Of a DNA stretch of 64,000 nt, positions 1,090 through 2,364 are shown one piece after another. Below the pieces are notes generated by a model that saw nothing but the letters and a program-made list of their open reading frames with translations, did no database searches and was not told the DNA's origin. This DNA comes from Porticoccus hydrocarbonoclasticus MCTG13d (GTDB lineage Bacteria; Pseudomonadota; Gammaproteobacteria; Pseudomonadales; Porticoccaceae): NCBI RefSeq assembly GCF_000744735.1, contig NZ_JQMM01000001.1, forward strand, positions 744,001 through 808,000. Reading direction: 5' to 3'. Positions within the stretch are counted from its first letter, which is position 1; the number at the start of each line of letters is the position of its first letter. Position numbers and translations under genes: made by a program.

Positions 1090-2364
1090 TTATTTGGGAA
1101 TGAATAGCAGATAACTGACGGCGTCCTGTCCGGGATCAATCAGCTCCAGCTTAAGTTTCACCGGTTGTCTGGCGGGCATCATGGTCATGTCGGCCAGGTC
1201 TCCGTGCAGGTATTCTTTGGGCTGAAAACGGCGTTGCGCAAGGATTTCCCCCTGCAGGTTTTCAAATCTTAGCACCAGCGACGGGAAAGGTTGTGCAAAG
1301 CTGGCCTCATTGATCAGGACAGCATCTACGCTCAGGGCATCGGGTATATCCGGGTGGCTGTAGACCATTAATTGATCGCTGCTGATTTTGTTCAGGTCCT
1401 GCAGGGGTGACAGTTCACAGCCCGCCACCTCGCAATAGCGGCCTATCCATTGCCGATTGCCCGGATCCTCGCCAATCACATCGGCGAAAAAATACAGGTA
1501 CTGTGCAGCCAGCAGGGCGGAAGCCAATAGGGAAAGTGTCAGCCATAACCAGGTTTTTCGCCGGGGTCTGGCGGGGGGATAAAAGAGAGTTGTGTCGCTC
1601 TGCAGGTGCAGTGGATTATCTTCTACCACATCCTGTGGCGGATTTTCAGTGGCTTTGCCTGCCCGCTCTGTCGGTGAGTTATCTTCGGACTGCTGAGTGG
1701 ATTCAGCTGTTGCTGAGTCGGGCCAGTGGATATCGATTTGTTCCGGAAGTCTTGCCTGGATGACCGTTTCGGCTTCAGGCTCATCCTGCTCCTGCTCCTG
1801 CTCCTGCTCCTGCTCCTGCTCCTGCTCCTGCTCCTGCTCCTGCTCCTGCTCCTGCTCCTGCTCCTGCTCCTGCTCCTGCTCCTGCTCCTGCTCCTGCTCC
1901 TGCTCCTGCTCCTGCTCCTGCTCCTGCTCCTGCTCCTGCTCCTGCTCCTGCTCCTGCTCCTGCTCCTGCTCCTGCTCCTGCTCCTGCTCCTGCTCCTGCT
2001 CCTGCTCCTGCTCCTGCTCCTGCTCCTGCTCCTGCTCCTGCTCCTGCTCCTGCTCCTGCTCCTGCTCCTGCTCCTGCTCCTGCTCCTGCTCCTGCTCCTG
2101 CTCCTGCTCCTGCTCCTGCTCCTGCTCCTGCTCCTGCTCCTGCTCCTGCTCCTGCTCCTGCTCCTGCTCCAAGTCATTGTGCTGATCGGAGCTTGCGATA
2201 TGGGCAGGCATATCAGCCTGAGGCGCGTCGACGAGGTTTTCGCGCGCGTCAAACACCTTGAGGCAGGCGCCGCACCGAACCAGCCCGTTGGCCGCCTGAA
2301 GATGGGCTGGCATAGCCCGGAAAGAAAGCGAGCAACTGGGGCAGCGGGTGATGATTTCGTTCAT
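1090..2364 (-). CDS. zinc-ribbon and DUF3426 single-pass membrane protein with a (Glu-Gln)64 linker
   Basis: The N-terminus is an MJ0042-type zinc ribbon with two CxxC pairs (CPSC at residues 8-11, CGAC at 31-34). Residues 66-193 are an uninterrupted Glu-Gln dipeptide repeat, 64 copies. After an acidic linker there is one membrane helix at about 271-291, preceded by RPRRK, then a C-terminal domain of the DUF3426 type, presumably periplasmic. The family is commonly found between prmA and dusB, and no biochemical role is firmly known to me. From membership the protein should be a cytoplasm-facing zinc ribbon tethered to the inner membrane. The repeat makes this 424-residue protein much longer than it would otherwise be, and would give a strongly acidic, probably disordered spacer. 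The repeat unit is two codons, so copy-number change keeps the frame. Confidence 0.85.
   Translation of the reverse strand: MNEIITRCPSCSLSFRAMPAHLQAANGLVRCGACLKVFDARENLVDAPQADMPAHIASSDQHNDLEQEQEQEQEQEQEQEQEQEQEQEQEQEQEQEQEQEQEQEQEQEQEQEQEQEQEQEQEQEQEQEQEQEQEQEQEQEQEQEQEQEQEQEQEQEQEQEQEQEQEQEQEQEQEQEQEQEQEQEQEQEQEQEQDEPEAETVIQARLPEQIDIHWPDSATAESTQQSEDNSPTERAGKATENPPQDVVEDNPLHLQSDTTLFYPPARPRRKTWLWLTLSLLASALLAAQYLYFFADVIGEDPGNRQWIGRYCEVAGCELSPLQDLNKISSDQLMVYSHPDIPDALSVDAVLINEASFAQPFPSLVLRFENLQGEILAQRRFQPKEYLHGDLADMTMMPARQPVKLKLELIDPGQDAVSYLLFIPK
1784..2170. repeat. perfect hexanucleotide microsatellite, about 64.5 copies of CTCCTG/CAGGAG
   Basis: The sequence is an unbroken CTCCTG tract over 387 bases with no substitutions visible. 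It lies wholly inside the zinc-ribbon/DUF3426 gene, where the minus strand reads CAG GAG and encodes Gln-Glu. The other frames also stay open (Arg-Ser on the minus strand, Leu-Leu and Ser-Cys on the plus strand), which explains the long shadow reading frames here. Such purity suggests recent expansion by slippage. The exact copy number could be affected by assembly. Confidence 0.98.

Follow-up and report, generated by a model that had tools for sequence, protein, structure and literature searches.

In Caulobacter crescentus, the zinc ribbon of the membrane protein ZitP binds PopZ, and its DUF3426 domain is required for pili (PMC5182063, PMC5182065). A protein of the same domain order, with a zinc ribbon of the same CXXC-X19-CXXC form as that given in PMC5182063, is encoded by the cultivable marine bacterium Porticoccus hydrocarbonoclasticus MCTG13d, at positions 1090..2364 on the minus strand of a 64,000-nucleotide stretch of its genome (contig NZ_JQMM01000001.1, positions 744,001 to 808,000; hereafter 'the window'). 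This product, 424 residues long with an ATG start, was recognised from its reading frame and from Pfam and NCBIfam matches, and consists of a zinc ribbon, an acidic linker, a transmembrane segment and DUF3426; ZitP is its nearest characterised relative. While the transmembrane segment of ZitP lies at residues 106-127, behind a short linker (PMC5182065), the modelled membrane helix of the Porticoccus protein begins at residue 268, and the sequence before it includes an uninterrupted run of Glu-Gln dipeptides encoded by a perfect hexanucleotide array.

Acidic dipeptide repeats are already known from the Ser-Asp regions of the staphylococcal proteins ClfA and Sdr, which likewise present an alternating acidic dipeptide that is variable in copy number without frameshift, but which are surface repeats, whereas the array in the window is presumed to be cytoplasmic and is built from a perfect 6-base unit (PMC3324548). 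The linker of PopZ, a different protein, offers a second likeness, in that it is acidic and little conserved in sequence, and that its length and charge set its behaviour, including that of the condensates formed; tandem repeats are not described in the excerpted part of that study (PMC9512792). The in-frame microsatellite that the window adds, within a ZitP-like protein, is genuine, extreme and backed by long-read sequencing; its tandem unit is a multiple of three bases. Bacterial microsatellites have mostly been discussed as on/off switches; the 6-base unit found here lies inside the frame, and changes in its copy number produce no frameshift, so that the gene is not switched off in that way, while the length and charge of the linker can change in steps of two residues. 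In TonB, which is likewise anchored in a membrane, Glu-Pro and Lys-Pro repeats form a spacer of X-Pro dipeptides, but those repeats are periplasmic and are not known to be a perfect microsatellite. Among the papers listed on hexanucleotide, dipeptide, linker-repeat and glutamate-rich bacterial arrays, no title or abstract opening describes this array.

The tract had been described in an earlier note, made from the letters of the window alone, as a perfect CTCCTG array of about 64.5 copies at 1784..2170, giving a 128-residue Glu-Gln block between the zinc ribbon and the membrane helix, and both parts of that description held. Tandem Repeats Finder reported it at 1784-2170 with period 6, 64.5 copies, 100% matches and a score of 774, and the minus-strand frame, in which the unit reads GAGCAG, placed (Glu-Gln)64 by arithmetic at residues 66-193 (window 1786-2169), between the Pfam-matched segments. 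It was the sole tandem array in the window at a minimum score of 50; at a minimum score of 40, two further short rows of approximately two copies each appeared elsewhere. A 464-kb sample of the genome, made up of the window and 20 further stretches totalling 400 kb, contained just two exact hexamer arrays with at least four copies, namely the tract (64 copies) and one of 4 copies, and a chance origin of the tract is thereby excluded; for four GAGCAG units with up to three mismatches, the tract was the only site in the genome.

The tract also appears to be a faithful rendering of the chromosome. The MCTG13d genome (2,474,654 bases, one contig) was obtained by PacBio RS sequencing at 291x and HGAP assembly into a single contig, and a mean subread of approximately 3.3 kb can be computed from the reported 628.8 Mbp and 189,901 reads (PMC4472908), far longer than the 387-base tract, so that reads can span it and an artefact is unlikely. 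In addition, an independent metagenome assembly of the same genus (G005) matches the window's own genome (G000) at 99.8-99.9% identity on both flanks of the array (1,854 and 1,780 bases), and its contigs run into the same GAGCAG array from both sides and then end. The two are not the same strain throughout, since the flanks of the kinase array discussed below diverge more. In the second array unit of G005, Lys replaces Glu.

The ends of the protein place the block in a recognisable family. The zinc ribbon (residues 4-40, window 2245..2355, minus strand) corresponds to PF13719 and PF13717, with a Pfam match (E 1.2e-6) slightly below the curated cut-off, and to NCBIfam TIGR02098, with a match above its cut-off; its four cysteines (C8, C11, C31 and C34) were invariant across 46 aligned sequences, all of which were taken for having a recognisable CXXC pair. 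At the other end, the membrane helix and DUF3426 (window 1093..1536, minus strand, the segment being extended to the last codon) are covered at residues 277-420 by PF11906 (E 2.7e-39), a profile that includes the membrane helix, and the AlphaFold model displays a helix at 268-292 followed by a mostly beta domain. By analogy to ZitP, the zinc ribbon is presumed to be cytoplasmic and the DUF3426 domain periplasmic. A search for PopZ (PF10691) found it in none of the 17 genomes of the genus, with the control, Caulobacter vibrioides, positive, so that the partner in these bacteria would be something other than PopZ; the DUF3426 of that same control matches only below the curated cut-off, and the kinship to ZitP is therefore distant.

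Comparison with relatives bears on the origin of the array. Of 58 relatives, counting the window's own genome, 45 have a match to DUF3426, as do 59 of 112 family genomes and 13 of the 17 genus genomes, and eleven of those thirteen display a Glu-X dipeptide array in the linker. These arrays encode Glu-Gln as GAGCAG (G000, G005, G015) or as GAACAG (G010, G012), Glu-Ala (G003, G007) or Glu-Thr (G006, G011, G013, G016), for a total of five unit spellings (GAGCAG, GAACAG, GAAGCC, GAGACC and GAAACC), alternating Glu being the feature common to them. Eight of the ten carriers other than G000 have an assembly break or a run of N at the array: five assemblies end inside it, with the other contig half also ending in the array in four (G003, G005, G007, G010) and stopping at residue 16 in the fifth (G013), and three contain N (G011, G012, G015), with approximately 3 to 4 copies visible on each side of the gap in G015 (276 N) and G011 (86 N). 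Intact short arrays of other units, with 14 copies in both near-identical gene copies of G006 and 4 in G016, as compared to 64 in G000, demonstrate that copy number differs among relatives. The presence of such arrays accounts for the breaks that several assemblies of the genus have in the same genes.

Arrays were also present beyond the genus. Among the other 46 genomes of the family in which the gene occurs, four contained dipeptide arrays of at least four copies (Glu-Pro in G026 and G033, Glu-Gln in G019, and Pro-Glu with mixed codons in G114), and two contained acidic tripeptide arrays, sought by eye only: that of G023 lies at a contig end, and that of G061 surrounds a run of 242 N. Within named loci not titled as belonging to the DUF3426 family (L076-L143 minus L098), 2 of 67 displayed four copies, with mixed codons, and across 80 named loci (of which L073 and L074 represent one genome) 10 period-6 arrays fell within the 101 kb of DUF3426 frames as against 2 in the 825 kb outside them.

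The position of the array within the linker further separates these cases. Glu-Gln arrays (G000, G005, G010) begin 31-35 residues past the zinc ribbon and end 79-84 residues before the domain, whereas Glu-Ala and Glu-Thr arrays (G003, G006, G007, G016) begin 68-119 residues past the ribbon and end 30-36 before the domain, which indicates at least two births in one genus; the Ala (GCC) and Thr (ACC) units, being one base apart in that codon, may be related. A rough tree, in which five DUF3426 rows are short (15-73 residues), some supports are low, and L152, lacking a dus row, sits on an artefactual long branch, groups the Glu-Gln, the Glu-Ala and the Glu-Thr species. Within the Glu-Gln group, three species use GAG and two use GAA as the Glu codon of the visible array. 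As the peptide is unchanged, a single unit must have spread through the whole array, or the array must have been built anew.

Arrays of the same kind occur in a second gene of the genus, encoding a CheA/Hpt-like kinase in which Hpt, HATPase and CheW domains are recognised (loci L238-L243, L248 and L256) and to which 14 of the 17 genus genomes have a match. Glu-Pro arrays that precede an Hpt domain are whole and in frame in the Glu-Gln clade, with 17 copies in G000, 18 in G005, 11 in G015, 12 in G012 and 5 in G010, and at least 9 copies are visible at a contig end in G002. The Glu codon is GAA or GAG, and G005 has both: a run of GAACCA units gives way to GAGCCA units, as would be seen in a half-finished replacement. 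The corresponding site in G007 carries a Val-Glu-Gln array at which two contigs end, a run of N lies elsewhere in the stretch in G011, and no array of at least three units was found where the stretch was read in G003, G006, G008, G009, G013 and G016. At loci L208 and L215, Thr-Glu and Glu-Val-Ala units, together with some N, occur in a SPOR-domain membrane protein of G006, and Glu-Pro occurs at a contig end in a protein of G008 that resembles it, the SPOR assignment applying to G006. The idea that the array is special to DUF3426 was consequently dropped in favour of a lineage-wide habit: the proposal of the earlier note that the tract grew by slippage of a unit that preserves the frame gains support from the other spellings in the same linker and from the in-frame kinase arrays, and the comparison it had suggested, with DUF3426 homologues of close relatives, returned a repeat in 11 of 13 that varies in spelling and position; the arrays in other genes of the genus had escaped that note.

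The contribution of the array to the linker was assessed from charge, computed without the last 20 residues across 65 linkers (own included; broken or gapped linkers, among them those of the other Glu-Gln species, lie outside this number). The linker in the window, with 223 residues and a net charge of -81 (-0.363 per residue), was the lowest of the 65, whereas its 95 residues outside the array carry -0.179 per residue, as compared to a median of -0.177 for its relatives. By arithmetic, the array would span approximately 46 nm if fully stretched and approximately 19 nm if helical.

Taken together, these observations are best accounted for, with a probability of about 0.62, by slippage that builds and rehomogenises in-frame arrays in a disordered linker, with selection maintaining acidity and the block acting as a charged spacer. 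In the mechanism so envisaged, a hexanucleotide microsatellite would have grown by replication slippage within the linker of a ZitP-like protein, with slippage adding, deleting and rehomogenising units; every change in copy number keeps the frame because the unit is two codons. Selection would then filter what the unit encodes: Glu would be retained, alternating with Gln, Ala, Thr or Pro, none of which is charged, and the linker would stay acidic and soluble, in an unfolded or extended form. The resulting block would be a charged spacer of great length, keeping the zinc ribbon well away from both the membrane and the DUF3426 domain; this length is probably under loose control.

The filter on unit coding was examined against several expectations. 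All units in the DUF3426 linkers of the genus contain Glu, and none contains Lys, Arg or a bulky hydrophobic residue, the Lys-bearing edge unit of G005 excepted. When seven lineages are treated as independent (which the Glu-Ala and Glu-Thr lineages may not be), the probability that all seven contain Glu is 3.5e-5 against plain linker dipeptide composition and 2e-5 against two-copy proto-repeats from other groups, where 39 of 179 contain Glu.

Several points weigh against this explanation. When the comparison is with two-copy proto-repeats of the family itself, where Glu is present in 33 of 45, the same outcome has p 0.11, which weakens any strong claim of selection for Glu and means that the filter may act on linkers generally rather than on arrays; arrays without Glu, encoding Asp-Lys and Trp-Gln, also exist elsewhere in the genome. 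Two of the thirteen gene-bearing genomes (G008 and G009) lack a dipeptide array of at least four copies and the DUF3426 gene was not found in 4 of the 17, three of these being rated 87-100% complete, so that neither the array nor the gene looks indispensable. AlphaFold models residues 75-191 as one helix, with block-mean pLDDT of 75-93 over 81-190, which argues against a disordered chain; that model was given little weight because the sequence is repetitive and because the Glu-Pro arrays of relatives cannot be helical. Finally, slippage is judged from assembled sequence, on which its continuation to the present is no more than possible.

The strongest of the competing explanations, although on balance an unlikely one, is that the array would be an adaptive tuning knob, its length and charge being selected and varying to adjust the reach of the zinc ribbon to a partner. 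The in-frame length differences among close relatives in the kinase gene, and the recurrence of arrays in the DUF3426 linker across many species, are consistent with such tuning, as are two precedents: the length and acidity of the PopZ linker are functional (PMC9512792), and the functions of ZitP can be uncoupled by deleting two residues before its transmembrane segment (PMC5182063). The existence of array-free relatives (G008, G009) speaks against it, however, as do arrays in unrelated proteins, such as at the carboxy terminus of a HAD phosphatase. A wider proposal, rather unlikely as a whole, would treat the Glu-X microsatellites of Porticoccus in the ZitP-like DUF3426 protein, the CheA/Hpt kinase and the SPOR protein all of them linkers of envelope and signalling proteins, as a set of evolvable spacers that determine reach and charge, with arrays arising, being exchanged and changing in size at a faster pace than the evolution of the domains. 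The arrays of the ZitP-like protein and of the kinase may, by analogy, tune one surface-motility system; ZitP serves polar pili in Caulobacter, and the Chp kinases serve twitching in Pseudomonas.

A plain neutral microsatellite is the more doubtful alternative. It would hold that a slippage-prone lineage gathers hexamer arrays in tolerant disordered segments, with no role for the peptide, and it can draw on the variety of arrays in the genus (Asp-Lys, Trp-Gln, Glu-Pro, Val-Glu-Gln and Thr-Glu) and on the family's proto-repeats, which were already rich in Glu. Yet the DUF3426 units always contain Glu, as opposed to Asp-Lys and Trp-Gln at other loci, and synonymous differences in the Glu codon separate relatives in both the DUF3426 and the kinase genes, even if the events behind both observations are few. 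The last possibility, that the tract was collapsed, expanded or misjoined in sequencing or assembly, was rejected as extremely improbable: the copy number does rest on one assembly, others break at this array and one (G012) has probable misjoins at its arrays, but deep PacBio coverage and the flanks of G005 tell against it, and the combination that the earlier note had held to indicate an artefact, related strains without a repeat together with reads of a much shorter tract, is at odds with arrays in 11 of 13 relatives and a long-read assembly.

The related species supply a natural series of arrays, with Gln, Ala and Thr in the genus and Pro in the wider family and with 0 to 64 copies, so that the question of whether linker length is selected or tolerated becomes directly testable. 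The linkers of the family also contain short motifs. Those of the form DDLLIHDDMD were present in 18 of 132 linkers (131 distinct), with 0.055 expected after shuffling, and of the form DESWA..LL in 30 of 132, with 0.005 expected; as many of the rows are related to one another and the expressions were composed once the sequences had been viewed, these counts are descriptions and not tests. DDLLIHDDMD starts 22-32 residues past the zinc ribbon in all seven readable species of the genus outside the Glu-Gln clade, and is absent from all four readable Glu-Gln species, where the array starts at 31-35 (G012 and G013 being unreadable at the site). In the window's clade, the array may have taken over the place of this acidic motif kept by sister species. 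The linkers are otherwise little conserved, apart from a PLQLDW motif approximately 17 residues before the DUF3426 match.

Several features of the tract and its model were set aside. All six frames of the GAGCAG unit are free of stops, and among the frames of the tract the Glu-Gln frame alone belongs to a conserved protein; an Arg-Ser frame is also open through it, and Ser-Cys and poly-Leu frames are open across it on the antisense plus strand (window 1697-2185 and 1726-2421). An antisense protein of either kind was rejected, those frames being open only because the unit lacks stops. Relative to shuffles, the GAGCAG strand folds slightly better (z -2.40, -4 kcal/mol) and the CTCCTG strand no better (z -0.65), a signal too weak for a DNA hairpin to be used as the driver of the repeat. 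Matches of the full protein to the Protein Data Bank (13 at E up to 0.1) were eukaryotic or viral chains that align to the array or its surroundings and were not taken as homology. A Foldseek search with the AlphaFold model gave no match at E <= 0.001; its best matches were small beta domains, presumably Ig-like, and were not used.

Two assemblies of the genus show irregularities at arrays. In G012, GAACAG arrays (L202 1614-1714 and L020 at approximately 1164-1266) are joined on one side to unrelated sequence, and are probable misjoins at arrays, or else further arrays; the gene just downstream of one of them we take to resemble old yellow enzyme. In G003, a contig end (L025 1-36, G003:C45) carries adapter-like sequence, which we presume to be a sequencing adapter, directly before the Glu-Ala array.

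The genes around the ZitP-like gene run in the same direction as it does. Upstream lie two genes at 3396..5235 (minus strand, from their reading frames), which we take from their sequences to be accC and accB, and prmA, encoding ribosomal protein L11 methyltransferase (2431..3327, minus strand; Pfam PrmA); downstream lies a dusB-like gene for a tRNA-dihydrouridine synthase (29..1030, minus strand; Pfam Dus), followed just outside the window by what is presumably fis. The order is thus accB, accC, prmA, the array gene, dusB and fis.

Other short arrays were encountered elsewhere. A second hexanucleotide array in G000, brought to light by a pattern control, consists of approximately 10 copies of GACAAG (G000:C1:578523-578588; L180 949-1578) and encodes Asp-Lys at the carboxy terminus of the HAD phosphatase mentioned above, which we assume to be GmhB-like. 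A TGGCAA array (L196:4809-4849) encodes Trp-Gln, with 4 exact copies or 6.7 with mismatches, in a frame of the same genome whose product resembles a membrane protein, and a perfect 8-base array of GTTCTCAG, in 10 copies, lies at L195:8472-8551 (G000:C1:1708472-1708551), its unit not being a multiple of three. In G076, from another genus of the family (L204), approximately six copies of the GAGCAG unit are read as Ala-Gly; the protein looks secreted and also contains Pro-Thr and Gly-Thr repeats.
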